Positions 10,401 through 62,000 of a stretch of DNA of 64,000 bases are shown here, in pieces (the stretch's first letter is position 1; each line of letters starts with the position of its first letter). The DNA is from Calditrichota bacterium. GTDB lineage: Bacteria > CLD3. The notes beneath the pieces were generated by a model. That model made no database searches. It saw only the letters and a list, made by a program, of their open reading frames with translations, and was not told the DNA's origin. Location: NCBI GenBank assembly GCA_008501735.1, contig QQUF01000056.1:1-64000 (forward strand). Direction: 5' to 3'. Made by a program: the position numbers and the translations under genes.

Positions 10401-10463
10401 CCGACTAAAGTCGGATATCCTGTTCTTTTTTACCTTTCGTGTTTTTTGTGTTTTTCGTGGGCA
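10401..10463. repeat. Small palindrome plus T-rich repeat unit upstream of mutS2
   Basis: CCGACT-aa-AGTCGG (10401-10414) is followed by a T-rich stretch with repeated TTTCGTG units ending in CGTGGGCAA (10436-10463). A close relative of the second part lies inside the GT87-like gene at 37988-38011. Both kinds of sequence look like intergenic repeat debris. Confidence 0.5.
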
Positions 10464-10526
10464 AGAAATTAGTTAGGAACCACTTTCTCCTATTAAACAT
10501 TAATCATTAATCATTAGTCATTGTTT

Positions 10527-12878: not shown

Positions 12879-12888
12879 AAATGCAAAA

Positions 12889-12921
12889 ACCTATTTGATG
12901 GCTCAAAGCCATCAAATAGGT
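12889..12921. repeat. Palindrome, 15-bp arms, between mutS2 and the next gene
   Basis: ACCTATTTGATGGCT and its exact complement are separated by CAA. It begins 11 nt after the mutS2 stop. There is no T-run after it, so it is a poor terminator; it may be a dispersed palindrome or an RNA-processing hairpin. Confidence 0.65.
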
Positions 12922-12948
12922 AGAATTGATAAAAAATTGGATAAAAGA

Positions 12949-14070: not shown

Positions 14071-14088
14071 ATTAATTTTGTTAGTGCA

Positions 14089-43122: not shown

Positions 43123-45402
43123 ATGAATTGGATTCCAAAAGACCCTTTATCAAAAATTGACATAAAATACAAATTGCCGCTTGGGTTTGTGTGCCTTTAT
43201 CTTTTCGTGTTTGGAATTGGCGGTTACTTTGTCATTAATTCCGTTTACGCTCCTTTAAACCAAGAAATTCTTTTTCGTCTCCAAAGTGAATCATTGGCTC
43301 AAGCGACTATTTTTGACAAAAAATTAGAAACTCTTGTTCGCCGAGTTGAAGATTTTGCATCTGACGGTTTTATTAGAACTCAAACTAAAATTCAATTAGA
43401 AAATCCAAATCAAACTCGCTCATTAGAAGAGTTGAAAAGACATCTTTTGCTTAACAAATTATCACTCGTTACCGAATTTGCTGATTTACAAATTTACGAT
43501 TTAAAGGGCGAAAGAATCATCAGCGTTAAGGACTTTTCATTTCAGTTTGAGAAAAATGTAAATTCTGATTTGCCAAAAAGTGGTCAGAAACTCAGTTCAA
43601 TAATTGCTCCAAACGAAAAAAATACGTTTCCTGCAACGGCGATAATTACTCCGATTTGGGATATTCATATGGAAAATCAAATTGGATATTTGATTTGCAT
43701 TGTGAATTTGATTTCAGTCATTAACAATACTTCTTTGGATTATCAAGGAAACCTTGACGAATCTAAAATCGAAAAATATTTAACTTTTGTGGATTCAAAA
43801 GGAGTTGCTTTAGAAGTGCCTTGGTGGTTTTTGAAAAGACTTGACCCAATTCAAAATTGGCAAAATGAAGATGAAGTTATTGGGATTAAAGTAATTTCTG
43901 CAAAAGAAGAAAATTCAGTTACGCACGTTGGAAGGCATACTTGTAAAAATGGAAAAGAAATGTTCGGGCAAAGTTATCCGTTAAAAAGTGCAGGTTGGAA
44001 CACTTTGATTGAACTCGACGCAAAAGACGCTTTGATTCCTTTACAAGTTATGGAAGGCAAACTTTTTGGAGTTGCTCTTGCTGTCGCGTTAACGACTTTG
44101 ATTTTACTTTTTTTTCCAATTCAGTATTTAGTCAGACCTCTTAGTGAATTGCAAAAAATGGCATTTTTTATAAAAGAAGGCGATTTTTCCAAAAGAAATA
44201 AGATTTCCTCCGAAGACGAAATCGGGCAATTAGCAAAAACATTTAACTTAATGACTGATGCAATCGAAGAACGAACAACAAATCTTGAAAAAATTGCAAA
44301 TGACCTTGAAAGTCGCGAACGAGAACTTAGAATACAACACAATCGTTTACAGACAGTTGTTAATTCAATGCGAGATGGTTTGATTCTTCTAAATTCTAAA
44401 GGAGAAATTTCACTTTCAAACGAAGCGGCTGAACCTATAATTGATAAATTAGGAGTTGTAGAGGCTCAATTGGGAATCAAGACTTGCCAGAATCACGAAC
44501 AGGATTCTGAAAAATGTCTAAATTGCCTTTTCGACCCATTTAAAGTTTCTTCTTGTGAGCTAAAATCCAATGACAGAATTTATGAATTTATTTCTTCCAA
44601 ACTTCCTTCACTTGGAGGTAATTCGGGAAAGGTTTTAGTGGTCAGAGACATTACTGAAAGAGAATTGATGAAAGAACAACAAGCTCACCAAGAAAGGTTA
44701 GCTGTTCTCGGAAGAACTGCTGCTGTCGTTGCTCACGAAATGAACAATCCTTTGGCGGCGATTTCGATGTACAACCAAATGATGGAAGAAGAACTTCCAA
44801 AAGGCTCACCGTTTTTAGAACACGTTGAAGTCATAAACCGTAACACTGATACTTGCAGACAAATTATTCGGGAACTTCTTGATTACGCAAGAACTCCACA
44901 GCCAAAAGCCGAAGAAGTTGATTTGCAAATTGTTGTGAATAATTCGGTTAGGTTACTTACTTCGCTTTATAGTAAAAAGAAAATAATAATCGAAGAAGTA
45001 CTTGAAACCGAAGATACTTTGATTTGGGGAGATTCAACTCAATTGCAACAAGTATTTGTGAATCTGCTAGATAATGCAATTCAGTCTATAAATTCAAGAG
45101 AAGTAAATATTTGCATCAGAATAGGAAAATTAACTTCTGAAAATCAAGTCTTTGTGGAGGTTAAAGACAACGGTGCTGGAATTCCTTTAGAACTTCAAAG
45201 AGAAATTTTCGAACCATTTTTTACCACTAAAAGTTCAGGTGGAACAGGACTCGGTTTGCCAACAGCTAAAAGAATAATTACTGCTCACAGTGGCGATTTG
45301 ACTCTAGTAAAATCGCAGAAAGGCGAAACGATTTTTAGAGTTGTTTTGCCTTTGCAAGAAATACAAACAACGAATTTTGAAACTGATCCCTTGAAAGTTT
45401 AG
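43123..45402 (+). CDS. Membrane sensor histidine kinase with four-cysteine PAS region
   Basis: A 759-residue NtrB-type kinase. It has a membrane segment at about 17-38, a periplasmic sensor domain (about 40-300), a second membrane segment (about 308-330), HAMP, coiled coil, and a PAS-like domain (about 410-500) with a symmetric cysteine set C455-x9-C465-x2-C468-x9-C478. HisKA follows with phosphoacceptor His538 in VVAHEMNNPLAAIS, then HATPase (FVNLLDNAIQSI, DNGAGIPLELQREIFEPFF, GGTGLGLPT). The cysteines could bind a metal or Fe-S cluster or form redox disulfides. It is followed after 94 nt by its likely partner, an NtrC-type regulator. Confidence 0.93.
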   Translation: MNWIPKDPLSKIDIKYKLPLGFVCLYLFVFGIGGYFVINSVYAPLNQEILFRLQSESLAQATIFDKKLETLVRRVEDFASDGFIRTQTKIQLENPNQTRSLEELKRHLLLNKLSLVTEFADLQIYDLKGERIISVKDFSFQFEKNVNSDLPKSGQKLSSIIAPNEKNTFPATAIITPIWDIHMENQIGYLICIVNLISVINNTSLDYQGNLDESKIEKYLTFVDSKGVALEVPWWFLKRLDPIQNWQNEDEVIGIKVISAKEENSVTHVGRHTCKNGKEMFGQSYPLKSAGWNTLIELDAKDALIPLQVMEGKLFGVALAVALTTLILLFFPIQYLVRPLSELQKMAFFIKEGDFSKRNKISSEDEIGQLAKTFNLMTDAIEERTTNLEKIANDLESRERELRIQHNRLQTVVNSMRDGLILLNSKGEISLSNEAAEPIIDKLGVVEAQLGIKTCQNHEQDSEKCLNCLFDPFKVSSCELKSNDRIYEFISSKLPSLGGNSGKVLVVRDITERELMKEQQAHQERLAVLGRTAAVVAHEMNNPLAAISMYNQMMEEELPKGSPFLEHVEVINRNTDTCRQIIRELLDYARTPQPKAEEVDLQIVVNNSVRLLTSLYSKKKIIIEEVLETEDTLIWGDSTQLQQVFVNLLDNAIQSINSREVNICIRIGKLTSENQVFVEVKDNGAGIPLELQREIFEPFFTTKSSGGTGLGLPTAKRIITAHSGDLTLVKSQKGETIFRVVLPLQEIQTTNFETDPLKV

Positions 45403-45445: not shown

Positions 45446-45461
45446 AGGCACAGAAATTGCA
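45446..45461 (+). promoter_or_regulatory. Sigma-54-like promoter of the NtrC-type regulator gene
   Basis: AGGCACAGAAATTGCA matches TGGCAYRNNNNTTGCW except at the first base. The GG and GC doublets are correctly spaced. It lies in the 94-nt gap between kinase and regulator genes, 35 nt before the ATG, and suggests that the regulator boosts its own expression. Confidence 0.5.
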
Positions 45462-45496
45462 CACTTCAAATTTTTATTTGACAGGAATAAATTTCA

Positions 45497-46891
45497 ATGG
45501 TTTTCAAATCTAATTCTTCTCCTTACGACCTTGCAAATTTGAATGTGCTTGTAGTTGATGACCAAGAAGATGTTAGACGTGGATTGAATCGTCTAATTAG
45601 TACTTTAGGTTGTAAAGTCTCAATGAGCCATTCTGCTGAAGATGCCTTAAAAATTCTTTCTCGAAAACCTGTGGACATTGTTTTTACTGACTTAAAAATG
45701 GATGGAATGTCGGGTGAGGAACTACTCAAAGAAATTAATCAAAGATGGGCAAATATTGTTGTTGTCTTAATTACAGGACACGGAACAATCGAACTTGCAG
45801 TTAAATGTTTGCGTAATGGAGCTTCTCATTTTATTACAAAACCTTTTGATAACAAAGAAATTCTAAAATTTGTAGAAAGAGCAGGGTACGGAATTCTTGC
45901 TGAAAAGCTTTCTTTGCAAAGAACAAAAAAGAAAAGCATTCCAATTATCGCTGTTGATAGAAAAATGAAGGAAGTCTTGGAACTCGTGGAAAGAGTTGCA
46001 CCACAAAAAATCCCTGTTTTAATTGAAGGAGCAAGTGGTACGGGCAAAGAATTAATTGCTCACGAAATCCATAATCGAAGTCGAGTAAAAGACAAACCTT
46101 TTTTGGCTATAAACTGTATTGCTTTGCCTGATACATTGCTTGACTCAGAATTATTTGGCTACAGAAAAGGTGCATTTACAGGAGCAATCAAAGACACAAT
46201 TGGTCTTTTTGAACAAGCAAACGGAGGAACTGTCTTTCTTGACGAAGCTTCTTCAATGTCGCCACTTTTTCAAGGAAAGTTACTTAGAGTTTTACAAGAA
46301 AAAAAAGTTCGCCCTTTAGGACAAAATACTGAGAGAAAAGTTGATTTTAGAATTATTGCTGCGAGTAATAAAAATTTGTCAGAGTTAGTTAAAAAAGGTG
46401 AGTTTCGTGAAGACCTTTACTATCGGCTTCAAGTCGTAAAAGTTTCAATTCCAACACTTACACAACGTAGAGCTTGTATTCCTGCTTTGGCAGAGTACTT
46501 TCTTAAAAAAGCGGTTTCCGAGTTTTTCTATGACGATTATCCCTCTCCAAATATTTCTCCGTCAGCTATGGAAGAATTACAAAATCATACTTGGTCTGGC
46601 AATGTGCGTGAATTAGAAAATACAATTCAACGTGCATTGATAATTCAGAAAGGTGATAAAATTCTACCATCTCATTTAGGGTTGACAGATAATAATTTAA
46701 TTGCAGAATCTCTATTGGGAGAAGAATTTACCTCCTACGAAGAAAGCAAACAAAGAGTGATTGAAAACTTCCAAAGGCAATATGTTCAAAATATTTTAGA
46801 GCAAACAAATGGAAATATTTCCAAAGCCGCAGAGATGTGCGGTTTGACGAGAGCGGCTCTACAAAGAATTTTGAAAAAATTGAGCTTATAA
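45497..46891 (+). CDS. Sigma-54-dependent NtrC-family response regulator
   Basis: 464 residues. The receiver domain has D21-D22, phosphoacceptor D65 (VFTDLKMDG) and K115 (ITKPFDN). The AAA+ domain has Walker A GASGTGKE (178-185), the sigma-54 contact loop GAFTGA (225-230), Walker B GGTVFLDEA and the arginine-finger region REDLYYRLQV. The C-terminal Fis-type helix-turn-helix is NISKAAEMCGLTRAALQRIL. The complete set means it can open sigma-54 promoters. Its genomic position, between a partner kinase and the nar operon with a sigma-54-like element and palindromes upstream, makes the nar-act block its most likely target. Confidence 0.95.
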   Translation: MVFKSNSSPYDLANLNVLVVDDQEDVRRGLNRLISTLGCKVSMSHSAEDALKILSRKPVDIVFTDLKMDGMSGEELLKEINQRWANIVVVLITGHGTIELAVKCLRNGASHFITKPFDNKEILKFVERAGYGILAEKLSLQRTKKKSIPIIAVDRKMKEVLELVERVAPQKIPVLIEGASGTGKELIAHEIHNRSRVKDKPFLAINCIALPDTLLDSELFGYRKGAFTGAIKDTIGLFEQANGGTVFLDEASSMSPLFQGKLLRVLQEKKVRPLGQNTERKVDFRIIAASNKNLSELVKKGEFREDLYYRLQVVKVSIPTLTQRRACIPALAEYFLKKAVSEFFYDDYPSPNISPSAMEELQNHTWSGNVRELENTIQRALIIQKGDKILPSHLGLTDNNLIAESLLGEEFTSYEESKQRVIENFQRQYVQNILEQTNGNISKAAEMCGLTRAALQRILKKLSL

Positions 46892-46997
46892 AATCCATTC
46901 TCTGTGTCTAATGAAACATTTTATCTTAAATTTAAAATTTCTATAACTCATTTAAAAACAATATTATAAGGCTTTGGTGAAAAAGTATAATTTAACT

Positions 46998-47013
46998 GCA
47001 TACCTAAGTATTC
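46998..47013. promoter_or_regulatory. Candidate regulator-binding palindrome 1 (distal)
   Basis: GCATACCTAAGTATTC is an imperfect copy (two half-site changes) of the palindrome at 47068, in the same CTGCATAC context. Its centre is about 200 bp upstream of the predicted narC transcript start. Confidence 0.5.
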
Positions 47014-47067
47014 AGTCTCTAAGTTATTGATTTTAAACATTTAATGTGAGAGTTGTAATATTAAGCT

Positions 47068-47083
47068 GCATACTCAAGTATGC
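47068..47083. promoter_or_regulatory. Candidate regulator-binding palindrome 2 (proximal)
   Basis: GCATACT-CA-AGTATGC is a perfect palindrome 70 bp downstream of its relative. Its centre is about 130 bp before the predicted transcript start, a normal place for an NtrC-type enhancer. No other copies were noticed in the window. Confidence 0.55.
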
Positions 47084-47179
47084 TTTTCGAATAATTTTTA
47101 CATTCCTAAAACCCTGAAATTATCCATTAAAAATTATTTTAACCTAATTATTTAGGACTTACCTAAAAGACTGTTTCAT

Positions 47180-47195
47180 TGGCACGAATCTTGAG
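47180..47195 (+). promoter_or_regulatory. Sigma-54-like promoter of the nar-act block
   Basis: TGGCACGAATCTTGAG carries a complete -24 box and a -12 box TTGA in place of TTGC with correct spacing, 52 nt before the narC ATG. A short palindrome TTTAGG-actta-CCTAAA (47151-47167) lies just upstream. The 355-bp gap 46892-47246 holds these sites and the two GCATAC palindromes. Confidence 0.55.
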
Positions 47196-47246
47196 AAAAA
47201 CAGAAAAGTTAGAAAACAATAATTTAAAAATAATTTCAGGTAACCA

Positions 47247-48107
47247 ATGCGACACTTCAAATTAGAATCACTTGCTTCTAAGCTCAATTGGAGATTTGCC
47301 GGAATAAGTTCAGTGTTTGCTCTTTTCCTTTGCACATCACTTTTGGCACAAGTTCCGACCGAATACTATAAACAGAATTGTGTTAGTTGCCACACAATCG
47401 GTGGAGGAAGATTAACAGGTCCGGATTTGAAAGATTTATCTAAAAGACAAGACAGAGAATGGCTTGTAAACTGGCTGATGGACCCGGAAGGTATTTTGAA
47501 AAGTGGCGATCCTTATGCCGTAAAAATGCAAAAAGAATCTCGTGGTGCTGTAATGACTCGTTCTCCGGGAATGACGAAATCTCTTGCAATCGCACTGCTT
47601 GACCTTATTGATGAAGAATCCAAACTCGAAAAATCTCAGTTTGCTGGTTCACAAATTAGTGATAGACCTTTGCTTCAAGAAGACATTGATGAAGGTCTTG
47701 CTTTGTTTATGGGAAGTACAAAGTTGAAAAACGGTGGACCTTCTTGCGTTAGTTGTCACGTTGTGAATAGTTTAGACGGATTAAGTGGAGGTCGTCTCGG
47801 TTTGAATTTGACAAGAGCTTATGCAAGATTAGAAGGTAGAAAAGGGCTTTCGGCTTGGCTCATTTCTCCCCCAAGCAAAATGATGAATCCGATTTATAAA
47901 AAATATCCGATTGATGAAGAAGAAATATTACCACTCGTTGCTTTTTTGAAAAACGAGACTGAAAAAGATGCCCCTGAAAATACTTCGGCAATGATAAATT
48001 TTTTACTATTCGGAATCGGTGGTGCAGTACTCCTTTTGGTTTTATTTGACCTAATCTGGAACAAGCGTTTTCGTGCAGTTCGAGAACCAATGGTCAAAGG
48101 AAATTAA
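47247..48107 (+). CDS. narC: Membrane-anchored diheme cytochrome c (NarC-like)
   Basis: 286 residues. The N-terminal signal/anchor has its hydrophobic core at about 18-34. Two c-type heme sites, CVSCH, are at residues 45-49 and 167-171, each in its own cytochrome c domain. A C-terminal membrane segment (about 250-270, FLLFGIGGAVLLLVLFDLIW) ends in a basic tail. In Thermus nar operons a diheme cytochrome NarC precedes narGHJI and takes part in electron delivery to, and maturation of, the nitrate reductase; position and heme count match. The symbol rests on this analogy. It is the first gene after the sigma-54-like promoter. Confidence 0.82.
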   Translation: MRHFKLESLASKLNWRFAGISSVFALFLCTSLLAQVPTEYYKQNCVSCHTIGGGRLTGPDLKDLSKRQDREWLVNWLMDPEGILKSGDPYAVKMQKESRGAVMTRSPGMTKSLAIALLDLIDEESKLEKSQFAGSQISDRPLLQEDIDEGLALFMGSTKLKNGGPSCVSCHVVNSLDGLSGGRLGLNLTRAYARLEGRKGLSAWLISPPSKMMNPIYKKYPIDEEEILPLVAFLKNETEKDAPENTSAMINFLLFGIGGAVLLLVLFDLIWNKRFRAVREPMVKGN

Positions 48108-48162: not shown

Positions 48163-51100
48163 ATGAGCGTTAAATCGTGGATAAGAGATGACGTAACTCC
48201 AGAAGATAGGAGTTGGGAACAATTTTACAGAAATCGTTGGCAGTACGACAAAGTTGTTCGAAGCACTCACGGAGTTAATTGTACTGGAAGTTGTACTTGG
48301 AACATTCACGTCAAAGACGGGATCGTAACTTGGGAAATGCAAGGTTTGGATTATCCATTACTTGAGCCAAGTTTGCCACCTTACGAACCTCGTGGATGTC
48401 AACGTGGAATTTCGTACTCTTGGTATTTATACAGTCCTTTGCGTGTAAAATATCCTTACATACGCGGTGCTTTACTTGACCTTTGGAATGATGCAAAATC
48501 TAAATATTCTGACCCAGTAGAAGCTTGGACTTCTTTAGTAAACGACCCAGTTGCTCGCAAGCGTTGGCAAACTGCTCGTGGAAAAGGCGGTTTCCGTAGA
48601 ACAAATTGGGAAACTTCTTTGGAAATTATGGCAGCTGCTAACATTCACACAATCAAACAACACGGTCCTGACAGAATCGCTGGTTTCTCACCGATTCCTG
48701 CGATGTCAATGATTTCCTACGCTTCTGGAGCAAGAATGCTTCAATTGATGGGCGGACTTTGTTTGTCTTTTTACGATTGGTATTGCGACCTTCCAAATGC
48801 TTCTCCGGAAGTTTGGGGAGAACAAACTGACGTTGCTGAATCAGCAGATTGGTACAACGCAAAATTCCTTGCTGTAATGGGTTCAAACTTGAATATGACA
48901 AGAACTCCTGATTGCCATTTTGTTGCAGAAGCAAGACACAACGGTTCAAAAATGTATGTCTTTTCACCTGACTTTAGTCAAGTTGCAAAATTTGCAGACG
49001 AATGGATGTCGATTAATGCCGGACAAGACGGAGCTTGGTGGATGTCAGTGAATCACGTAATTCTCAAAGAATTCCATCACGACAGACAAGTTCCTTACTT
49101 CATAGATTACGCAAAAAGATACACAGATTCAGGAATGCTCGTTGAATTAAAACCAGACGGTGATAATTACGAAGCAGGACAACTTCTTCGTGCAGGAAGA
49201 GTGGAAAAATATTCCGACGAAGAAAACGGCGATTGGAAATTCCTAATGTGGGATAAAGCCGATAAAACCGTAAAAATGCCAATGGGAAGTGTCGGACATC
49301 GTTGGGGAGAAGAAAAAGGAAAATGGAATCTTACTCTCAATGACGGAAAAGACGGAAGTGCTATTGACCCGATTTTAACACTTTTAGATGAAAATGATGG
49401 TGAAGCCCAAGTCAGGTTCGATGACTTTGTAGAAGGAGAAAGTTTATACCGCGGAGTTCCTGTTAAAAAATTACAAACTGCGGACGGAAAAGAAGTTACT
49501 GTTGCAACAGTTTACGATTTGTTAATGGCTCAATACGGAGTTTCACGTGGTTTGAGTGGAGCTTATCCAAAAGATTACGACGACGAAAACAGTGCTTACA
49601 CTCCGGCTTGGTCTGAGAAATTCACAGGTTTGTCTCGTAAGGATTTAGTCAAATTTGCACAAGAATGGGCTTCAACAGCCGAACACACAAACGGAAAATG
49701 TTCAATAATTATTGGTGCAGGAATAAATCACTGGTATCACGCAAACTTAATGTACAGAGCAGGAATTCACGCTTTGATGTTCTGCGGTTGCGTTGGTGTA
49801 AACGGTGGTGGTTTGGCACATTACGTTGGACAAGAAAAATTAGCTCCGGGCGAATCTTGGGGGTCAATTGCTTTTGCAAAAGACTGGTACGGACCTTCAA
49901 GACAACAAAATGCTCCAAGTTGGCATTACGTGAACACTGACCAATGGCGTTACGAAAAATCTTTTACGGATTACCACTCAATTCCGAAAACTGACAAAAA
50001 AGGTAAAATTAATAGCGGACACACAATGGACGTGCAAGTTAAAGCCGTCCGAAATGGTTGGATGCCTTTTTATCCTCAGTTTGAAGAAAATTCAACAGAA
50101 ATAGTTGAACAAGCCTTCAAAGCAACTGGTTCAAGAGAAGAGAAAGACGTTGTTAAATACGTTGTTGACCAGCTCAAAGAAAGAAAAATGAAATTCTCGG
50201 TAGAAGACCCTGACAACTCGAAAAACTGGCCTCGTGTTTTCTACATTTGGAGAGGAAATGCTTTGATGGCAAGTGCAAAAGGACACGAGTATTTCTTAAA
50301 GCATTACTTGGGAACTCACAATAATTCAATTGCAGATGAGAATTTTGCAAAAGATGAAGTCAAAGAAGTTACTTGGCACGACAAAGCTCCAACAGGAAAA
50401 ATGGATTTAATCGTTGACCTTAACTTCCGAATGGATACTTCTGCACTTTATTCTGACCTTGTTCTTCCTGCTGCCACTTGGTATGAAAAAGCAGATTTGA
50501 ACTCGACAGATATGCACAGTTTCATTCATCCGCTTTCAAAAGCTGTTCCTCCTTGTTGGGAATCAAAAAGTGACTGGGAAATTTTCAAACTTATTTCTAA
50601 AAAATTCTCAGAACTTTCAGAAAAACATTTCCCTGAATTAGTTCCTGATTTTATGACTGCTCCACTTGCCCACGACTCAATTGCAGAAATTTCACAACCT
50701 GCGATGAAAGATTGGATTGACGGAGAAATCGAAGCAATTCCGGGAAAAACAATGCCGGGAATGAAAATTGTCCACAGAGATTACAAAAATCTTTACAACC
50801 AATACAATTCTTACGGACCAAATGTCCGGGCAAACGGCTTAGGAGCTCACGGAACAAAATACGAAGTCGCAGATTTTTACGACAAACTTATTGAGGAAAG
50901 ACCAACTGAAACTTGGGGCGGAAAAACTTATCCTTCCTTAAGAGATGACGAAGAAGTTTGTAACGTAATTCTTCAATTAGCTACTGTAACAAACGGTGAA
51001 TTGGCTTACCGCTCTTACAAAAATATGGAAAAGAAAGTCGGGCTTCCTTTAGCGGATTTGGCAACAGGTTCAAGAGATGTTAGAACGACTTACAAAGATT

Positions 51101-51804
51101 TACAAACTCAACCTCGCAGATTTATCAACAGTCCAATGTGGTCAGGTTTGGTAACAGGCGGAAGAGCTTACAATCCTTTCACTTACAATGTCGAAAAAAT
51201 GGTTCCTTGGAGAACTTTGACAGGTCGTCAACATTTTTACTTAGACCATCCGGGTTATATCGAACACGGAGAACATTTGCCGACTTACAAAGCAAAACCT
51301 TCTTCAAGCCAATACGCAGATTTGGATTTTTCCGACAAAGCTACAAATACAAAAATGTTGAATTTCCTAACGCCTCACGGAAAATGGCACATTCACTCGA
51401 CTTATGGCGATAACCACAGAATGACAACGCTTTCTCGTGGAATTGAACCATTTTGGATTAATGATAAAGATGCCGAAGACCTTGGAATTATCGACAACGA
51501 TTGGGTTGAAGTTTACAATGATAACGGTGTTGTTGTAACTCGTGCTTGTGTCAGTGTCAGAATTCCGCGTGGAATTTGTATCCAATACCATTCACCTGAA
51601 AGAACATTCTCAGTTCCAAAATCTCCGATGAGAGGGAACAAAAGAGCAGGTGGTCATAATAGTTTAACAAGAACTCGTCTAAAACCAAATCTACTGATTG
51701 GTGGTTATGCACAATTTACTTACCACTTCAATTATTGGGGACCAACTGGTTGTAACCGTGATACTCACATCTTGGTAAGAAAATTAGACAAAGTTCAATT
51801 CTAA
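48163..51804 (+). CDS. narG: Respiratory nitrate reductase, catalytic alpha subunit
   Basis: A 1213-residue molybdenum bis-MGD enzyme that reduces nitrate to nitrite. The N-terminal FS0 cluster ligands are H36, C40, C44 and C79 ([15 protein letters not shown]). The molybdenum ligand is Asp223 in [14 protein letters not shown], equivalent to E. coli Asp222. Long near-identical stretches to NarG are visible, such as [11 protein letters not shown] and [14 protein letters not shown]. There is no Tat signal, so the active site should face the cytoplasm. Nitrite oxidoreductases of the cytoplasmic type are related, but the narJ, narI and two narK genes next door favour nitrate reduction. AAGGA precedes the ATG. 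Confidence 0.97.
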
Positions 51805-51834: not shown

Positions 51835-53325
51835 ATGGACGTTAGGTCGCAAATTTCAATGGTTTTTCATTTAGACAAGTGTATTGGTTGTCATACTTGC
51901 AGTATCGCTTGCAAAAATATTTGGACTGACCGAAAAGGTACCGAATATATGTGGTGGAATAATGTGGAAACCAAACCCGGAACAGGCTATCCGACAAAAT
52001 GGGAAGACCAAGAAAAATATAAAGGTGGTTGGGAAGTTAAAAACGGAAACTTAAAACTGAAATCAACTGGAAAAGCTCGAATCATTCCGAATATTTTCCA
52101 CAATCCGCATCAACCAAGTTTAGATGATTACTACGAACCTTGGACTTACAAATACGATGAGCTTTTTACTGCTCCCGAAGGTAACGACCAACCAACAGCA
52201 AAACCAATTTCGATGATTACCGGTGAACCAATGGACATCAAAGCAGGTCCAAATTGGGACGATGATTTGAGTGGCTCTCCGATTTACGCTGAAAATGACC
52301 CGAATTTCGATAACCTTTCGGAAGAACAAAAAGCACAAATGTTCGCAATTGAACGCCTTGTCTTTTTCTACTTCCCAAGAATTTGTAATCACTGTTTGAA
52401 TCCTGCTTGTGTTGCTTCCTGTCCTTCAGGTGCTTTGCACAAACGCGGTGAAGATGGAATCGTTCTTGTTGACCAAGAAAGATGTCGTGGTTGGCGTTCT
52501 TGTATTCCTGCTTGTCCTTACAAAAAAACTTACTACAACTGGCAAACAGGTAAATCTGAAAAATGTATTCTTTGTTTCCCAAGAATCGAATCTGGTCAAG
52601 CTCCTGCTTGCTTCCATTCTTGTGTTGGAAGAATCCGTTACTTGGGAGTTTTACTCTACGACGCAGATATGATTGATGAAATTGCAAAATTACCTGACAA
52701 CGAATTGGTCGAAGCTCAAAGAAGAATGATTTTAGACCCGAATGACCCGGAAGTTATCAGAGCTGCAAGAGAAAACGGAGTTCACGATTCAGTTATCGAA
52801 TCCGCTCAAAAATCTCCAATCTACAAATTCGTAAAAGAATGGGGAATTGCACTTCCACCTCACATCGAATACAGAACTTTACCAATGCTTTTCTACGTTC
52901 CACCAATGCTTCCTGTAATGACTTCGATGGACGGAGATGCGAAGAAAAATATGATTGAAGGAATGTTCCCTGATTTCGACAAAGCTCGTGCTCCTATGGA
53001 ATTTTTGGCGAATCTTTTCTCAGCAGGAAACACAGGAGTTTTGAAATACACTTTGAAAAAACAAATGGCAATTAGACAATACAGAAGAGCTGTAACAGTC
53101 GGCGACATTACAATGGAAGCTGCTAAAAAAATGTTACTCGAAGCTGATTGTTCAGTTGAAGCCGCAGAAGAAATTTACAAATTGACAACACTTTGTACTT
53201 TTGACGACAGATTTGTAATTCCTCCTGCACATCGTGAAGAAGCGATTGAAATGATGAAAGACCCTCTCGAATACAAACAACAAGTTGGTTTTGGACTTCG
53301 TGAAGAACCAATGAGAGGTGCGTAA
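51835..53325 (+). CDS. narH: Respiratory nitrate reductase, iron-sulfur beta subunit
   Basis: A 496-residue electron-relay subunit with four clusters: CIGCHTCSIACKN, CNHCLNPACVASCP, CRGWRSCIPACP and CILCFPRIESGQAPACFHSC. The tryptophan in CRGWRSC replaces a cysteine and marks the 3Fe-4S cluster of NarH. The C-terminal NarH-specific region follows (about 370-490). It starts 30 nt after narG and overlaps the narJ leader. It links the heme b of NarI to the NarG active site. Confidence 0.97.
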   Translation: MDVRSQISMVFHLDKCIGCHTCSIACKNIWTDRKGTEYMWWNNVETKPGTGYPTKWEDQEKYKGGWEVKNGNLKLKSTGKARIIPNIFHNPHQPSLDDYYEPWTYKYDELFTAPEGNDQPTAKPISMITGEPMDIKAGPNWDDDLSGSPIYAENDPNFDNLSEEQKAQMFAIERLVFFYFPRICNHCLNPACVASCPSGALHKRGEDGIVLVDQERCRGWRSCIPACPYKKTYYNWQTGKSEKCILCFPRIESGQAPACFHSCVGRIRYLGVLLYDADMIDEIAKLPDNELVEAQRRMILDPNDPEVIRAARENGVHDSVIESAQKSPIYKFVKEWGIALPPHIEYRTLPMLFYVPPMLPVMTSMDGDAKKNMIEGMFPDFDKARAPMEFLANLFSAGNTGVLKYTLKKQMAIRQYRRAVTVGDITMEAAKKMLLEADCSVEAAEEIYKLTTLCTFDDRFVIPPAHREEAIEMMKDPLEYKQQVGFGLREEPMRGA

Positions 53326-53326
53326 A

Positions 53327-53968
53327 ATGTTGGACACAACTAAAATTTTTACAAATTTCTCTTTTCTTTTCACTTATCCTGAAACTCATTTTGACGAAAT
53401 AATAAAACAAGTACTCAACGAATTAGTACTAGTAGGACAATCGGAAGTCGTGGAAACGTTAAATCGTTTGCACGACTTTTTTAAAAGTCCAAAGTTTTCA
53501 GATGTTGAAGAGACGTTCACGAGGACTTTTGATATGAATCCTGCCTGTTGTTTGGAAGTTGGTTGGCATTTATTCGGTGAAGATTACAAACGAGGTGAAT
53601 TTCTTGTACTGATGAGACAATCTTTGGCAGAAGAAAGAATTCCTGAATCTACTGAATTACCTGACCATTTGAGTCATTGCCTACAACTTTTAGCAAAATT
53701 GGAAGATGAAGATGGATATGAATTTGCAAGAGTTTTTATTCTTCCGGCTTTAGAGAAGATTCAACACGGTTGCAAAGACAAAGTAACAAATCCTTACACA
53801 CAACTAGTTGACGCATTGATGGTTTTATTAAAATCAGTTTATGAGATAAAAGAGATTCCTTCGTCTTCTCCAAAGCACACTGATCCAAAATTAAATTTTC
53901 AAGAAAGTTTTCACCTTCAAAATACTGGAAACGGTGTTTTGAACAATCATTCGGAAAAAATGCTATGA
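53327..53968 (+). CDS. narJ: Nitrate reductase assembly chaperone
   Basis: A 213-residue helical chaperone of the NarJ/TorD group that holds apo-NarG for cofactor insertion and membrane attachment. Typical segments are FSFLFTYPETHFDEI and the conserved NPACCLEVGWHLFGEDYKRG with ELPDHLSHCLQLLA. ATG 53327 is used because it directly follows the narH stop and has AGAGGTG 7 nt upstream; an in-frame GTG at 53318 inside narH is an alternative. It overlaps narI by 4 nt (ATGA). It is not part of the final enzyme. Confidence 0.93.
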   Translation: MLDTTKIFTNFSFLFTYPETHFDEIIKQVLNELVLVGQSEVVETLNRLHDFFKSPKFSDVEETFTRTFDMNPACCLEVGWHLFGEDYKRGEFLVLMRQSLAEERIPESTELPDHLSHCLQLLAKLEDEDGYEFARVFILPALEKIQHGCKDKVTNPYTQLVDALMVLLKSVYEIKEIPSSSPKHTDPKLNFQESFHLQNTGNGVLNNHSEKML

Positions 53969-54696
53969 ATGAAAATACCTTTTTCGACTACTTAAACCTC
54001 TTTTGGTTTACAATTTTGCCTTACGTTGCATTGTTTACATTTTTCATTGCAACAATTCAACGTTATCGTGGAGAGGCTTTTACTTACTCAAGTTTGTCCT
54101 CTCAGTTCTTAGAAAACAAAGTTCATTTTTGGGCAATGGTTCCTTTTCACTACGGAATTTTGACAGTTCTTTTTGGGCATTTAATTGGATTTTTGTGTCC
54201 TGCCGAATTGTTGGCTTGGAATAGCGAACCGATTCGACTTTATATTTTTGAAGTTACAGGTTTCATCGCAGCAATTTTTACTTTGGTCGGTTTGTTCAAC
54301 ATCATTATTAGACGAACTTCAAACGCCAGAATAAAAATGGTTACAACAACTGCTGACTGGGTTGTAATAGCAATCATAGTTTTTCAAGTTATCACGGGAG
54401 TTTACACAGCAGTTTTCCACAGTTGGGGAAGCTCTTGGTTTGCATCTTCGATGGCTCCTTATCTTTGGTCAATCGTTCAGTTCAGCCCTGAAATCGCTTA
54501 CGTAACACCTTTACCAATTATGGTAAAACTTCACATTATCAGTGCTTTTGTAATTGTTACACTTTTCCCATTTACAAGGTTGGTTCACGTTCTTGTTGTG
54601 CCGAATCCTTACCTCTGGCGAAAACCACAAGTTGTTCGTTGGTACTGGAACAGGAAAAAAATTCGTACTACAAGTTTCAAAATTGACAGAAAATAA
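53965..54696 (+). CDS. narI: Nitrate reductase cytochrome b subunit
   Basis: A 243-residue membrane anchor with five hydrophobic segments. The heme b ligands are recognisable as histidines in PFHYGILTVLFGHLIGF and in the pair KLHIISAF ... FTRLVH, matching E. coli H56, H66, H187 and H205. It oxidises quinol on the outer side and passes electrons to NarH. It overlaps narJ by 4 nt, so it is translationally coupled. The order GHJI is complete. Confidence 0.96.
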   Translation: MNENTFFDYLNLFWFTILPYVALFTFFIATIQRYRGEAFTYSSLSSQFLENKVHFWAMVPFHYGILTVLFGHLIGFLCPAELLAWNSEPIRLYIFEVTGFIAAIFTLVGLFNIIIRRTSNARIKMVTTTADWVVIAIIVFQVITGVYTAVFHSWGSSWFASSMAPYLWSIVQFSPEIAYVTPLPIMVKLHIISAFVIVTLFPFTRLVHVLVVPNPYLWRKPQVVRWYWNRKKIRTTSFKIDRK

Positions 54697-54744
54697 TTTA
54701 CTAAATATTGAATTTAAAAATACGGATTAGTCCAGAGTTTGGTT

Positions 54745-56292
54745 ATGCAAAAACCTGAATTACTTGATTTTAGTCAGCCGAGAATAAAGACTCTACATTA
54801 TACTTGGATTGCATTTTTTATAACATTTTACGTTTGGTTTAACTTAGCTCCGTTAGCTACAACAATGCTGAAAAGTATGAATTGGCTAACGAAGGAACAC
54901 ATCAAAATTTTACTCATTTGTAACGTTGCTCTAACGATTCCTGCAAGGATTGCTGTTGGTGCAATGATTGACCGTTACGGACCAAAGGTCGTTTTTTCCG
55001 GTCTGATGATTATTATGGCAATTCCTGCTTTTGTCTTCGCATTTGGCGATAATTTTATGCAATTGATGATTTCAAGATTAATTCTTGGAAGTATCGGAGC
55101 GGGATTTGTAATCGGGATTAAAATGGTTGCAAACTGGTTCCCGCCAAAAATGATTGGACGAGCAGAAGGATTTTATGCTGGTTGGGGAAACTTTGGTTCA
55201 GCTTGGGCAGCAATGACTCTTCCTTGGATTGCAATTACAGTTTGTAAAGAATGGCTTGGACTCGGTGAAGACAGTTGGCGTTGGGCATTATTCATTAACG
55301 GAGCAGTTTCTTTAATTTATGGAATCGCTTACTACTTTCTTGTAGATGATATGCCGGAAGGTAAAAAGTTTGAGGGAACTAAAAAAGCCGGTCCGATGAC
55401 AGTTACCTCTTACAAAGATCTTGTCCAATACGTGATTTGGTCTATTCCATTAATTGGAGCAATGATTGTTTTGGCTTGGAGACTTTCGACTGTAAAAGTG
55501 AACGGAACTCCAATAATTGACGAAACAATTCTTTACATCACTTACGGTGTCTTAGGGCTTTTCTTAGTCGGACACATTGTAAAAGTTTTACAAGTAAATT
55601 TGCCATACCTAAAAGCTGGAGTTCCTGAAAATGAAAAATATAATTGGGGAAGTGTAGCCGCTTTAAACAGTACTTACTTTGCAAATTTTGGCTCGGAACT
55701 CGCAGTTGTTTCGATGCTTCCAATGTTCTTTGAAAGCACTTTCAGTAGTCTTCAAGATGCAAGTGGAAATTACATAATGACAGCAACAATGGCTGGACTA
55801 ATCGCAGCTTCTTTTGCTTTTGTAAATCTTTTTGCACGTCCTCTTGGCGGATTGCTTTCTGACAAAATGAAAAACAGAAAACGAACAATGCTATTTTATA
55901 TGCTCGGAATTGCAATCGGATTTTTCTGTATGGCAAATATCGGACAGTACGGAAATATTACTCCCGAAGGTGTCCAAGAAATTATTCCAATGTTTGACGG
56001 AATGTGGTGGCTTGGAGTTTCTGTTGTGATAACTGTAATTTGTTCAATTTTTGTTCAAGGAGCAGAAGGTGCAACTTTCGCTGTGATTCCATTGATTAAC
56101 AAAAAAATGACAGGGCAAATTGCGGGAATGGCTGGAGCTTACGGAAATGTTGGAGCAGTTTGTTACTTGGTGTTATTCTCACTTGTTGATGCAAGGACTT
56201 TCTTCTTCATCACAGCTACTGGAGCTTTTATCAGCTTTCTTTTCTGCTGGTTTATGCTTGAAGAACCAAAAGACTCTTTCGCTGACGAATAA
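54745..56292 (+). CDS. narK1: Nitrate/nitrite transporter, NarK1 type
   Basis: A 515-residue MFS transporter with about 12 membrane segments. The first segment (TWIAFFITFYVWFNLAPLA) is typical of the NarK1 branch, thought to import nitrate with protons. MFS loop motifs include GAMIDRYGPK, and the nitrate-signature region GWGNFGSAWAAM is present. ATG 54745 is chosen, with TTG 54739 as an alternative start two codons earlier. It follows narI after 48 nt and is followed by a palindrome and the second transporter. Confidence 0.9.
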   Translation: MQKPELLDFSQPRIKTLHYTWIAFFITFYVWFNLAPLATTMLKSMNWLTKEHIKILLICNVALTIPARIAVGAMIDRYGPKVVFSGLMIIMAIPAFVFAFGDNFMQLMISRLILGSIGAGFVIGIKMVANWFPPKMIGRAEGFYAGWGNFGSAWAAMTLPWIAITVCKEWLGLGEDSWRWALFINGAVSLIYGIAYYFLVDDMPEGKKFEGTKKAGPMTVTSYKDLVQYVIWSIPLIGAMIVLAWRLSTVKVNGTPIIDETILYITYGVLGLFLVGHIVKVLQVNLPYLKAGVPENEKYNWGSVAALNSTYFANFGSELAVVSMLPMFFESTFSSLQDASGNYIMTATMAGLIAASFAFVNLFARPLGGLLSDKMKNRKRTMLFYMLGIAIGFFCMANIGQYGNITPEGVQEIIPMFDGMWWLGVSVVITVICSIFVQGAEGATFAVIPLINKKMTGQIAGMAGAYGNVGAVCYLVLFSLVDARTFFFITATGAFISFLFCWFMLEEPKDSFADE

Positions 56293-56382: not shown

Positions 56383-58005
56383 ATGACTGACCTTACAAAA
56401 TGGAATCCCGAAGACGCAGTTTTTTGGGAGAAAGAGGGCAAGTCGATAGCTACACGGAATTTATGGATTTCGATACCAAGTTTATTAGTTGGATTTGCTG
56501 TATGGTTAATGTGGGGAATCATTACCGTTCAGATGAAAAATATGGGTTTTACTTTTGGTAAATCACCTGAAGAAGCAATGGGATTGTTGTTCATTCTTTC
56601 ATCGGTTGCAGGTCTTACAGGAGCAACTTTAAGAATTCCAAGTTCATTTTTTATTCGGTTAGCTGGCGGAAGAAACACGATTTTTTTAACAACTGCTTTT
56701 CTAATGATTCCGTCAATCGGAACTGCAATAGGTTTGCAAGACCCGAATACTTCATTTGAATTTTTTGTTGTGATGGCATTTCTTTCAGGTTTAGGAGGTG
56801 GAAACTTTGCCTCTTCAATGAGTAACATCAGTTTCTTTTATCCCAAAAAATCTCAAGGTTACGCTCTCGGAATGAATGCAGGTTTGGGGAATTTCGGTGT
56901 TACAACAATGCAAATCCTAATTCCGCTTGTAATGACAATTCCAATGCTTGGTGCTTTGAGCGGTGAACCGATGATTTTGAAAAGTAGTAGCGGAACGATT
57001 TTTAAACAAATTGCGGCAGGTTCACAAACTTGGCTTCCAAATGCTGGTTGGGTTTGGATGCTTTGGCTCATTCCATTGGCATTTTTCGGTTGGTTCAAAA
57101 TGAACAACATCAAAACGGAAAATGTTACACCGAACTTAAAGAACCCACTTGTTTCTTTTGGAAGAATTACTTGGCTTTTGATAATCGGATTCATTACTGC
57201 GGCAATTGGACTTTACTTCATTTTAGAATTTAAATCTTTGACTTGGGTGAAATGGATTGCCTTACCTGTTGTCATTTTCCTGACTGTTTTTCTGATGAAA
57301 GTTCTTTCACCTGGTGAAATTAAAGCAAACCTTGAACGTCAGTACAAGATTTTCAATAACAAACACACTTGGATAATGACAATCATTTACACAATGACTT
57401 TTGGTTCATTCATTGGATTTGCTGCTGCGGTTGGACTTGCAATAAAATTCATCTTTGGTGTTCAACACGTAATGGTTGATGGAGTGATGACTCACAATTT
57501 GCCAAATCCTGACGGACCTGCAACTTTTATGTACGTTTGGGTTGGAGCTTTCGTTGGTGCTTTGATTCGTCCAATCGGTGGAAAAATCGCTGATAAAGTC
57601 GGTGGTGCAATTGTAACACAAGTTGTCGCGATTGTAATGGTTTTGGCTTCGATTGGAGTTGGTTACTACTCTGCTTTGGCTTACCAATCTGCAACTCCAC
57701 AAGACCATTTTATGCCATTTTTCGTACTCATCGTGATTCTTTTTGCCGCAACTGGAATTGGGAATGGCTCGACTTTTAGAACAATCTCAATGGTTTTTAA
57801 TGTTGAGCAAGCTGGACCTGTTTTGGGTTGGACTTCTGCTGTTGCCGCTTACGGAGCATTTTTGATTCCGAAAGTTATCGGTGAGCAAATGAAAGCTACA
57901 ACTCCCGAAGTTGCGATGTATGGATTTGCAGTGTTTTATGCAGTTTGTGCTGTTTTGAATTGGTGGTATTACTTAGGTCCAAAAGCCGAATACAAAAATC
58001 CGTAG
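56383..58005 (+). CDS. narK2: Nitrate/nitrite transporter, NarK2/NarT type
   Basis: A 540-residue MFS transporter. The start (TRNLWISIPSLLVGFAVWLM, then GIITVQMKNMGF) is that of the NarK2 branch, usually a nitrate/nitrite antiporter that exports toxic nitrite. The nitrate-signature GMNAGLGNFGVTTMQ is clear. Paired NarK1 and NarK2 proteins are common in denitrifiers and in Thermus (NarK/NarT). GGAGAT precedes the ATG by 6 nt. The act genes follow on the same strand after 105 bp. Confidence 0.9.
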   Translation: MTDLTKWNPEDAVFWEKEGKSIATRNLWISIPSLLVGFAVWLMWGIITVQMKNMGFTFGKSPEEAMGLLFILSSVAGLTGATLRIPSSFFIRLAGGRNTIFLTTAFLMIPSIGTAIGLQDPNTSFEFFVVMAFLSGLGGGNFASSMSNISFFYPKKSQGYALGMNAGLGNFGVTTMQILIPLVMTIPMLGALSGEPMILKSSSGTIFKQIAAGSQTWLPNAGWVWMLWLIPLAFFGWFKMNNIKTENVTPNLKNPLVSFGRITWLLIIGFITAAIGLYFILEFKSLTWVKWIALPVVIFLTVFLMKVLSPGEIKANLERQYKIFNNKHTWIMTIIYTMTFGSFIGFAAAVGLAIKFIFGVQHVMVDGVMTHNLPNPDGPATFMYVWVGAFVGALIRPIGGKIADKVGGAIVTQVVAIVMVLASIGVGYYSALAYQSATPQDHFMPFFVLIVILFAATGIGNGSTFRTISMVFNVEQAGPVLGWTSAVAAYGAFLIPKVIGEQMKATTPEVAMYGFAVFYAVCAVLNWWYYLGPKAEYKNP

Positions 58006-58110: not shown

Positions 58111-58767
58111 ATGACAAACAAAAATATAACAATCATCATTTTAATTGCGTTGATAATGGGTACTTTGATTTATGCACAAAGTATTGACATAAATTTGCCT
58201 GACAACAATCAAGGTTATGCACCAAAACAACCAATTAATTTCTCACACAGATTGCACGCTGGCGATTTACAACTTGATTGTCTTTATTGCCACACAGGAG
58301 CTGATAAAAGTCGGCACGCAGGAGTTCCGCCTGCAAGTGTTTGTATGAATTGCCACAATTTTGTAACTGCTCCTTGGGATATGGTTCAACTTGAAGAAGA
58401 AAATGCTAAAAAAGAGAATCGAGACCTTCAAATCCCTGTTTCAGATGAGTTAGCAAAACTTTACGCAGCTGTTGGTTTTAACACCGAGAAAATGAAATAC
58501 GACGAAAGTCTTACCAAAAAGCCAATCGAATGGAATCGCGTTCACAACATTCCTGCTTACGTTTATTTCGACCACAGAAGACACGTAAATGCAGAAGTTT
58601 CTTGTCAACAATGTCACGGAGCTGTTGAAACTATGGAAACTCTTTCACAAGAAAGCGACCTTTCGATGGGTTGGTGTGTGAATTGTCACAGAGACGTTAA
58701 TTCAGGTAAACTTTCAGATTTAGTAGGCAAAAATGCTTCTACAAATTGTGCAGGTTGCCATTACTAA
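58111..58767 (+). CDS. actA: Alternative complex III pentaheme cytochrome c subunit
   Basis: 218 residues with an N-terminal anchor/signal (ITIIILIALIMGTLIYA) and five CxxCH heme sites: CLYCH, CMNCH, CQQCH, CVNCH and CAGCH. This is the expected count for ActA. Extra histidines (SHRLH, DHRRH) can serve as distal ligands. It accepts electrons within alternative complex III, the quinol:electron-acceptor oxidoreductase that replaces the bc1 complex in many Bacteroidota, Chloroflexi and Chlorobiota. It is followed by a repeat-filled 295-bp gap before actB, where close packing is usual. Confidence 0.92.
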   Translation: MTNKNITIIILIALIMGTLIYAQSIDINLPDNNQGYAPKQPINFSHRLHAGDLQLDCLYCHTGADKSRHAGVPPASVCMNCHNFVTAPWDMVQLEEENAKKENRDLQIPVSDELAKLYAAVGFNTEKMKYDESLTKKPIEWNRVHNIPAYVYFDHRRHVNAEVSCQQCHGAVETMETLSQESDLSMGWCVNCHRDVNSGKLSDLVGKNASTNCAGCHY

Positions 58768-58770
58768 ACA

Positions 58771-58990
58771 GTGAACAATGAACAGTTAACAGTGAACAGT
58801 AAAGAGAATTTGGCTTTGCCAAATTTCAAAATTGTAGGGTAAACTTGTTTGTTTGCTCAAAAAAAATAGGACGAACAAAAAATACGAAAACAATGAAAAG
58901 TGAACAGTTAAATATTTCGCTTCGCTCAAAATTAGGAAATTGCGGTGCTACGATTTCCTGTCGTAGTAACGCTTAATTTTCAGGAACAAA
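58771..58990. repeat. Repeat-rich gap between actA and actB
   Basis: The 295-bp gap holds three kinds of repeats: tandem GAACAGT units (58771-58800, again near 58899), a palindrome AATTTGGC-ttt-GCCAAATT (58807-58825), and irregular short repeats with GAAATTGCGG/GATTTCCTG and CGTAGTAACG (58937-58975). No gene longer than about 25 codons is credible. Confidence 0.5.
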
Positions 58991-59062
58991 GTTTGCGAGT
59001 TGCACGCTTTTTGCGGGCTTCACGCTTTTCGTTTTTAAAAATGATTAATTATTGGAACTAAA

Positions 59063-62000
59063 ATGTCAGAAAAAAATACTAAAAAATATTGGAAAGGTGT
59101 TGAAGAACGAGAATTCACGCCTGAATTTGCACAAACCTTAGAAAGCGAATTTCCTGCCAAACCAGAAGAAATTGAAGATTTTTTGACCTCTCCAAAGCCT
59201 AAAACTTCAAGGCGGTCATTTTTGAAAATTGCAGGATTTTCCGTTGCAGGTTCAATGATTGCTTCTTGCGTTGGCGGTTCGATTGAAAAGTCAATTCCTG
59301 TTCTCATCAAACCCGAAGAAATCACTCCCGGAAAGGCTTACTGGTACGCAACGACTTGTGCAGGTTGCAGTGCTTCTTGCGGAATTTTGACAAAAAACCG
59401 TGATGGAAGACCAATAAAAGTCGAAGGAAATCCACAACATCTTTTGTCAAAAGGCGGAGTTTGTGCAGTCGGTCAAGCAATGGTTTTAGGGCTTTACGAC
59501 ACACATCGTTTGCAAAAACCAAAAGCTAACGGACAAGACACAAGCTCAATGGAAATTGACAGTGCAATTACTTCAAAATTAGCTGGAATTAACGACAACG
59601 TTTACTTCTTAACAGGAACTTTGTCGAGTCCAAGCACCAAAGCAACAATCCAAAAATTCCTTAGCAAGTATCCAAACTCGAAACACATCGAATACGATGC
59701 TGTTTCTTACTCAGCAATTTTAGATTCACACGAAATAAATTTTGGACAACGAGTTCTTCCTCACTACAATTTTGACAAAGCTGACGTGATTGTCAGTTTT
59801 GACGCAGATTTTCTTGGAACTTGGATTTCACCTGTGGAATTTACAAAAGCTTACACAAGCGGTCGAAAACTCGAAGGGAAATCTCCAAAAATTAACAAGC
59901 ATTTCCAATTAGAAGGAAGAATGTCAGTTTCGGGTGCAAATGCAGACCGAAGAATTAAAGCTACACGAGAAGAAGAAGTAGCGATTCTTTTGGCGATTGC
60001 AAATAAAATTGCACAAAGAAGCGGCTCGGAATTTCCAAGTTGGCAAGGTAAAAATGCAGATTCAAAAGTTGTTAATGAAATCGTTGACAGTCTTTGGAGT
60101 GCAAAAGGAAAAAGCCTTGTGATTAGTGGAATCAACGATGTTAATGTTCAAAATGTCGTGAATTTCATTAATGAAAAATTAGGAAATTACGGTCAAACTC
60201 TTGACATCGAAAATGCTTCAAAACAGTGGAATGGAAACGATTCAGACGTTAAAGAATTAATCGGAAAAATGAAAAACGGTCAAGTGAACGCTCTTTTTGT
60301 AGCTGACTCAAACCCTGCTTACAGTTTGCCAAATTCAGAAGAATTTAAAACTCTTTTTTCAAAAGTTCCTCTGACAGTTTCTTTCGCAGAACACATTGAC
60401 GAAACTTCAAGTTTGGCAAAATTCATAATTTCCACACCTCATTTCTTGGAATCTTGGAACGACACAGAAGTTGTTTCGGGAATGATGAGTGTTACACAAC
60501 CGACTGTTCCTGCTACAAAAGAAAATCGAACAGTTCGCCAAACTCTAAGCACTTGGCTCGGCGAATCAACAGACGACCTTAAAATTTTGCAAAATTATTG
60601 GCAAGAAAATATTTTCTCAAGAGCAGAAGGACTTTCAACTTTCCAAACATTTTGGGATAATTCGGTTCACGACGGTTTTGTAAAAATCAAGCCTCAAGAA
60701 CCAGTAGAATTTACAGAATTTGCGTTAGGGCAAAATGCACCAAAGGTTCAATCTGTTTCAGGAGATTCTTATGAATTAGTGCTTTACCAAAAAGCAGCAA
60801 TGCTTGACGGAAAACACGCTCAAAATGCTTGGCTTCAAGAATTATCTGACCCTGTAACAAAAGCAGTATGGGATAATTACGTTTGTCTTTCACAAAAAAC
60901 TGCCGAAAAATTTGGCGTTGTGAATGGCGATGTCTTGAAAGTTGATTCTGACGGAGTAACTGTAAACTTAATGGCACAAATTCAGCCCGGACAACACGAC
61001 AATGTTGTTGCGATTGCAGTTGGTTACGGAAGAATGGGAACAGAAAGATTTGCCAAAATCGGTCCAAAATGGATTGAAGGAAAAGGCACTTTGGAAGAGG
61101 GCAAAAAAGTCGGTAAAAATGCTTACCACTTCACACAACAAAAAGCAAAAAATATTTCATTTAGCAATAAAGTTCAGCTTTCAAAAACAGGTGAACACAG
61201 AGATTTGGCTTTGACCCAAACTCACCACACAATTACTGAACCCGAAAAATTTGGCGGAGAAAGAAGAAATATGGTTCGTGAGACGACTCTTGCGAGTTAC
61301 ATCAAAGATCCTTCTTCCGGAAATCATCGTCCACATATGACACCTGAACTTTGGGAACAAGATTTCAAATACGAAGGTCATCATTGGGCAATGTCAATTG
61401 ATTTGGGAAAATGCACTGGCTGTTCGGCTTGTGTAATTTCTTGTCAAGCTGAAAACAACATTCCAGTCGTTGGAAAAGATGAAGTTTTCCGTCGTCGTGA
61501 AATGCAGTGGATGAGAATTGACAGATATTATTCAGGTGATGACGGTGATGTTGATACTTTGCACCAACCTGTAATGTGTCAACATTGCGACCACGCTCCT
61601 TGTGAAGGTGTTTGTCCTGTTTTGGCGACAGTTCACAGCGACGAAGGTTTGAACCAACAAATTTACAACCGTTGTGTCGGAACTCGTTACTGTGCAAACA
61701 ACTGTCCTTACAAAGTCCGTCGTTTCAATTGGTTCGATTATTGGAATCAAGGAGAAAAGGAAAACTTGGTCCTGAATCCTGACATTACAACTCGTTCTCG
61801 TGGAGTTATGGAAAAATGCTCAATGTGTGTTCAGAGAATTCAAGAAGCAAAAACGGAAGCGAAAAGATTGAACAAACCGCTTGCTGACGGGGACATTCAA
61901 CTTGCTTGTCAACAATCTTGCCCGGCAGATGCAATTGTTTTCGGAGATGTAAATGACAAGGAAAGTGTAGTTTCAAAAGCAATTGCTGATGCTCGTAATT

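Follow-up and report, generated by a model that had tools for sequence, protein, structure and literature searches.

A conserved local sigma-54 two-component circuit predicted to control a nar operon and, likely, alternative complex III

The window, which is the whole 64,000-nucleotide stretch of DNA analyzed here, carries a sensor histidine kinase gene and an NtrC-type response regulator gene directly upstream of narC. The latter is the first gene of a nar operon, behind which lie genes for alternative complex III (ACIII). The features of the locus, in window coordinates, are:

43123–45402, plus strand: sensor histidine kinase, 759 aa; Pfam HAMP, HisKA and HATPase_c.
45497–46891, plus strand: NtrC-type sigma-54 response regulator, 464 aa; Pfam receiver, Sigma54_activat, AAA lid and Fis HTH.
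46169–46186, plus strand: codons of the GAFTGA loop, regulator residues 225–230, from translation and alignment.
46996–47015, no strand: candidate distal enhancer palindrome CTGCATACCTAAGTATTCAG, core at 46998; conserved at 8/8 loci.
47066–47085, no strand: candidate proximal enhancer palindrome CTGCATACTCAAGTATGCTT, core at 47068; conserved at 8/8 loci.
47180–47194, plus strand: predicted -24/-12 promoter TGGCACGAATCTTGA; one per gap at 8/8 loci.
47247–48107, plus strand: narC-like diheme cytochrome c, first target gene; Pfam Cytochrom_C, two CXXCH.
48163–51804, plus strand: narG; TIGR01580, 1517 bits (cut-off 1084).
51835–53325, plus strand: narH; TIGR01660, 668 bits (cut-off 524).
53318–53968, plus strand: narJ; Pfam Nitrate_red_del.
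53965–54696, plus strand: narI, assigned by position and conservation in syntenic loci.
54739–56292, plus strand: narK1 (MFS transporter); Pfam MFS_1.
56383–58005, plus strand: narK2 (MFS transporter); Pfam MFS_1, up to 92% identity in relatives.
58111–58767, plus strand: actA-like multiheme cytochrome of ACIII; Pfam Cytochrome_C7, after narK2 in relatives.
59063–62098, plus strand: actB (molybdopterin/4Fe-4S subunit), from Pfam; 29–60 bp after actA in three relatives.
62136–63563, plus strand: actC (NrfD-like); Pfam NrfD.

Genes resembling actD–F run on beyond the window (L044; downstream ORFs).

Open reading frames, Pfam domains and translation agree on a kinase and an NtrC-type regulator with an intact GAFTGA loop immediately before narC, as the initial annotation had described. 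With its receiver, an AAA+ domain bearing GAFTGA and a Fis-type HTH, the regulator fits an NtrC-type (receiver-bearing) sigma-54 enhancer-binding protein. It reaches no cut-off among the named NtrC/AtoC/ZraR/NtrX equivalogs of NCBIfam, the best being ntrC TIGR01818 at 378 bits versus 559, and the 24 further NCBIfam families shown for it all fall under cut-off. Orthologues of the regulator (65–82% identity) are present in seven other genomes, each time directly upstream of narC, and kinase orthologues share 57–76% identity. D65, Walker A, GAFTGA and the HTH are kept across five regulator orthologues, and GAFTGA is kept in L051–L053 too. The window's genome has one PF04552 match for rpoN (E 8e-56), with the RpoN box ARRTVNKYRE present, and encodes 37 sigma-54 activators, so that cross-talk with other activators is possible.

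A separate feature of this activator set is its length distribution: 18 of the 37 activator domains sit in open frames of 1500–1800 aa, for example L054:4150–9141 (minus strand) and L055:590–5641 and 9712–14769. One long frame that we examined (1663 aa) is a fusion of Ser/Thr protein kinase, AAA_16, TPR, GAF, Sigma54_activat and HTH, which suggests that enhancer-binding proteins fused to kinases form an expanded family here.

The gap between the regulator and narC (46892–47246) measures 355 bp and contains, as had been proposed, two palindromes and then a -24/-12 element, all found at their positions and beyond chance in shuffles. The palindrome consensus is CTGCATAC-N4-GTATNCA, and the -24/-12 pattern is TGGYAY-N5-TTGN. 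In 2000–3000 dinucleotide shuffles of the window gap, at least two palindromes (≤2 mismatches) appeared in none, and a -24/-12 element with ≤1 mismatch appeared in 0.1%. Core palindromes with 0–1 mismatch occur in the window's 4.14-Mb genome at these two positions only; the proximal one has a perfect 12-base core, the sole such core in that genome, and its centre precedes the -12 base by 118.5 bp. The -24/-12 match by itself is weak, as the window holds 39 matches with ≤2 mismatches against 39.3 expected; the element is convincing because of its position and conservation, not the match alone. A transcript start is predicted near 47206, which would leave a leader of ~41 nt.

The left boundary first drawn for the region, at 45446, implied a second sigma-54 promoter (AGGCACAGAAATTGC), and this part of the proposal had to be dropped: none of the six other loci checked has such a site ahead of the regulator. 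Lacking conservation in these six relatives, it is best regarded as a chance match rather than an autoregulatory promoter. Elsewhere in the window, a perfect TGGCAC-N5-TTGC lies at 6702–6716, ~400 bp ahead of the chaperonin (Cpn60/TCP1) gene at 7116; the genome contains four such perfect matches in all.

Relatives of the locus were collected by scanning genome contigs with narC, which yielded six, and by tblastn for the kinase and regulator upstream. By tblastn, both genes stand immediately upstream of narC in L013 (G001), L014, L015 and L016; L014 and L015 belong to the KSB1 MAGs OFTM72 and OFTM356, and L016 to a Chlorobiota MAG in which the kinase is cut by the contig end. Searching 82 genomes of L014's phylum for the regulator added three further genomes (G334, G335 and G348). 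A corresponding search around G011 found the regulator, among 297 genomes of the phylum, in G011 itself only, indicating that the module is rare in that phylum. The order kinase–regulator–narC–narG is kept in G000, G001, G009, G010, G334 and G335, and the same gene order is seen in G011 and G348, where the kinase is cut by the contig end.

All eight gaps contain exactly two palindromes (≤2 mismatches in 12 positions) and one -24/-12 element (≤2 mismatches). Three of the loci constitute a blind test, since G334, G335 and G348 were obtained after the motif and arrangement had been fixed; all three fitted, since in each the regulator immediately precedes narC and the gap carries two palindromes and a single -24/-12 element. 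Palindrome spacing is 69–74 bp in seven of the eight gaps and 228 in L016. The distance from the proximal centre to the -12 base is 144–149 bp (144.5–148.5) in six loci and about 119–122 bp (118.5–121.5) in the window and its nearest relative, and the -24/-12 element ends 50–61 nt before the narC start throughout (8/8). Its -12 half reads TTGA, TTGT or TTGC, and only one of the eight retains the consensus C. Dinucleotide shuffles of all gaps produced at least two palindromes in 0 of 2000–3000 for most gaps and in ≤0.1% for any. When seven gaps were aligned, the invariant columns clustered in the palindromes and the -24/-12 element, the rest being divergent.

To assess specificity, we ran a relaxed pattern for the paired site on ten genomes. 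Six genomes (the window's own, G001, G010, G334, G335 and G348) gave a single match apiece, in every case ahead of narC, and the ten genomes gave no other match; the control pattern gave 0. G009 and G011 escape this strict pattern because their sites differ by one letter or in spacing. Counts of palindromes with ≤2 mismatches in other genomes were uninformative versus a reversed control, and the paired pattern was used instead. One paired site per genome bears out the earlier description of the circuit as self-contained. In G013 (L018), narC adjoins a preceding hemerythrin-like gene without any gap, and the kinase, the regulator and the sites are all absent; this nar operon seems to have swapped regulators relative to the sigma-54 pair. 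Judged by eye from translations, an Rrf2-type regulator and a hemerythrin-like protein precede the nar operon in this Bacteroidetes MAG (L018:2297–4208).

Conserved synteny and sites in eight genomes thus strongly support a local sigma-54 circuit that targets the nar operon, and we consider it highly probable that a dedicated two-component system turns on narCGHJIKK(-act) via sigma-54. At the sequence level, this reading has its footing in the gene order, the domain make-up, the conserved sites and their arrangement, the single-target specificity and the one rpoN gene. According to the proposed mechanism, the kinase would detect a periplasmic cue with its dCache-like domain, would probably respond to redox state or O2 in the cytoplasm through its four-Cys PAS-like domain, and would phosphorylate the adjacent NtrC-type regulator. 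The phosphorylated regulator would bind the two CTGCATAC-N4-GTATNCA palindromes ~70 bp apart and, with DNA looping over ~120–150 bp, would remodel the RpoN–RNA polymerase waiting at the -24/-12 element. Transcription would begin ~40 nt before narC, and read-through into the act genes would most likely lead to co-transcription of ACIII.

The signals assigned to the kinase, both periplasmic and cytoplasmic, are guesses. Its layout is TM, dCache-like periplasmic domain, TM, HAMP, PAS-like region with four Cys, HisKA (His538) and HATPase_c. In appearance, the sensor does not look like NarX or a NIT sensor. The matches to dCache_1 in the periplasmic part (E 6e-5) and to PAS ahead of HisKA (E 0.0018) are both weak. 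The AlphaFold model of the whole kinase is poor (pLDDT 50), as is that of the periplasmic domain (52.7 overall), whose membrane-distal module alone reaches 70–87. Since both models are poor, the dCache assignment rests on weak Pfam and Foldseek evidence, the best Foldseek matches of the periplasmic-domain model being mostly Cache-type sensors (KinD, DctB and WalK; also TlpA and Mlp24-type). Within the PAS-like region, C455, C465, C468 and C478 are invariant in 7/7 kinases, with the spacing C-X9-C-X2-C-X9-C. Staphylococcus NreB, a cytoplasmic kinase that controls nar, has a four-Cys PAS, which holds an O2-labile [4Fe-4S] cluster (PMC4601167), so redox or O2 sensing through the four-Cys PAS-like domain is a reasonable though tentative analogy and a plausible input to the window kinase.

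Several of the nearest sensor folds (KinD, DctB, WalK, TlpA and Mlp24-type Cache) bind organic ligands. The sigma-54 circuit could hence be real yet report neither nitrate nor anaerobiosis: the dCache-like domain would read an organic acid or another periplasmic ligand, and NarG and ACIII would serve in a growth-substrate response, or NarG would act as a nitrite oxidase. We regard this as somewhat unlikely. Against it, NarG and NarH score far over the equivalog cut-offs for nitrate reductase, redox sensing would fit the four invariant Cys, and the nar operon alone is marked by the paired site.

The extent of the target was assessed from gene spacing. The narG and narH equivalog models, both well above their NCBIfam cut-offs, identify a respiratory nitrate reductase NarGH. 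Gaps within narCGHJIKK range from -8 to 90 bp and are followed, in the window, by gaps of 105 bp before actA and 295 bp before actB. The actA–actB gap is 29–60 bp in G001, G009 and G011, and actA–actB come after narK2 in every relative with enough sequence. These tight gaps, together with the position of act after narK2 in relatives, make a single nar-act operon, with ACIII co-transcribed with nar, likely. The joint nar-act target originally put forward is likely on these grounds.

At 295 bp, the actA–actB gap of the window exceeds that of most relatives and leaves room for a separate act promoter. The regulator would then drive nar only, and ACIII would have its own promoter, constitutive or separately controlled, for which the gap offers sigma-70-like and -24/-12-like matches, e.g., at 59000–59014. 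This arrangement appears unlikely given that actB follows actA so closely in the three relatives, that actA lies close behind narK2 in relatives, and that the actA–actB gap contains no paired enhancer or conserved promoter; co-transcription from the narC promoter is the preferred reading. The -24/-12-like site at 59000 was set aside as chance or window-specific because of the short gap in the three relatives and the lack of a paired enhancer. The interval itself (58768–59062) is a repeat-like AT-rich insertion (AACAGTGAACAGT...) between actA and actB, and looks like a simple-repeat enlargement. As a further observation on these genes, the actB homologue of G011 (L037; G011:C9:14006–17026) reads with one internal TGA, which may reflect a sequencing error, selenocysteine or stop readthrough.

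Being 8-bp inverted repeats with a 4-base loop between two genes, the palindromes might instead act as RNA hairpins, forming a terminator of the regulator gene or an attenuator, rather than as protein-binding DNA. However, pairing is kept at the outer pair in 4, at the second in 10 and at the fourth in 6 of the 16 sites, without compensation, and it is the half-site letters that are conserved instead. Moreover, no T run follows the palindromes, and they lie upstream of the predicted start. A hairpin or terminator as their main role is refuted by this loss of base pairing, which leaves the RNA reading very improbable. Chance matches in AT-rich DNA, suggested by the chance-level count of -24/-12 matches alone in the window, are a negligible prospect in view of motifs at 8/8 loci, three of them blind, at least two palindromes in ≤0.1% of shuffles of any gap and none for most, and a paired site found once per genome.

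Because the basal activity of sigma-54 promoters is close to nil, control by a dedicated activator would tie expression of Nar and ACIII strictly to one sensor. A broader proposal, which we offer tentatively and with slightly more doubt than confidence, is that the locus represents an undescribed lineage-spanning module in which a kinase with dCache and four-Cys-PAS (possibly Fe-S) domains and a one-target sigma-54 activator gate membrane-bound Nar and ACIII, an entire unit of the respiratory chain, in a strict all-or-none manner, replacing FNR/NarXL-type control.

Among known systems, NarX–NarL and NarQ–NarP resemble the window pair in being two-component systems that control nar operons. NarL is a LuxR-type regulator that works with sigma-70, whereas the window regulator combines a Fis-type HTH_8 with AAA+ in place of the LuxR-type HTH, and its system has a distant enhancer and a dCache-like sensor. 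NreC, the partner of NreB, is likewise a LuxR-type regulator, acting with the housekeeping sigma factor, and the window regulator is not of this type. DnrT is a Crp/FNR-type factor, and Thermus has narC and ACIII. There, DnrST includes a regulator adjoining a narC-type nar operon in an organism with ACIII (PMC9270275); unlike the window circuit, it is without a sigma-54 activator. By Pfam, the regulator adjoining nar in the window is not Crp/FNR, and the single HTH_Crp (Crp/FNR-type) gene of the window's genome is on contig C8, not C59. No FNR box was found in seven of the eight gaps; one weak match with two mismatches, in the window gap only, was discarded.

NorR is a single-component NO sensor. 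As a sigma-54 activator of NO reductase genes, it uses multiple tandem upstream sites beside its target (PMC1274295), and it differs from the window regulator in its GT-N7-AC sites and its role in NO detoxification. Nitrate respiration is reported to be decreased in a P. stutzeri ntrC mutant (PMC8443478), an effect that may be direct or indirect. A sigma-54 precedent is NrfS–NrfR of Desulfovibrio (DVU0621), in which a GAFTGA NtrC-type regulator and a sensor kinase neighbour nitrogen-oxide respiration genes with sigma-54 promoters and exert two-component control of nrfHA, with sites before nap also (PMC5701242, PMC3333781, PMC4641369). NrfS–NrfR targets periplasmic enzymes (nrfHA and nap) and is tied to nitrite stress, whereas the window system addresses membrane-bound narGHI with ACIII; in the six genomes with a match, the paired sites lie before narCGHJI only, and not at an NrfSR-type nrfHA or nap target.

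Suarez et al. (2023) described a nar plus ACIII-like six-gene cluster in KSB1 and Planctomycetota MAGs from an Oslofjord tunnel (PMC10732223), a cluster of the same kind as that in the window; the MAGs OFTM72 and OFTM356 come from their study. One figure legend of that article points out s54 regions together with flgS, a sensor kinase of the NtrC family, and we found no promoter, enhancer or regulatory model in its text and legends. In the open-access literature, we found no description of sigma-54 two-component control of membrane-bound NarGHI, which is weak evidence of absence. The earlier view that RpoN control would be unusual here needs tempering, as sigma-54 is known for NorR targets and for nrf/nap (NrfSR), and a nar plus ACIII cluster with an NtrC-family kinase has already been drawn for KSB1 MAGs. 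With the circuit described here, membrane-bound Nar would join the nitrogen-oxide enzymes that sigma-54 two-component systems control. The circuit opens a way to test how nitrate reducers among uncultured KSB1-like and Chlorobiota-like bacteria choose nitrate respiration, and its DNA signature, two CTGCATAC-N4-GTATNCA sites plus a -24/-12 element, can be used to find the module in metagenomes and to read metatranscriptomes.
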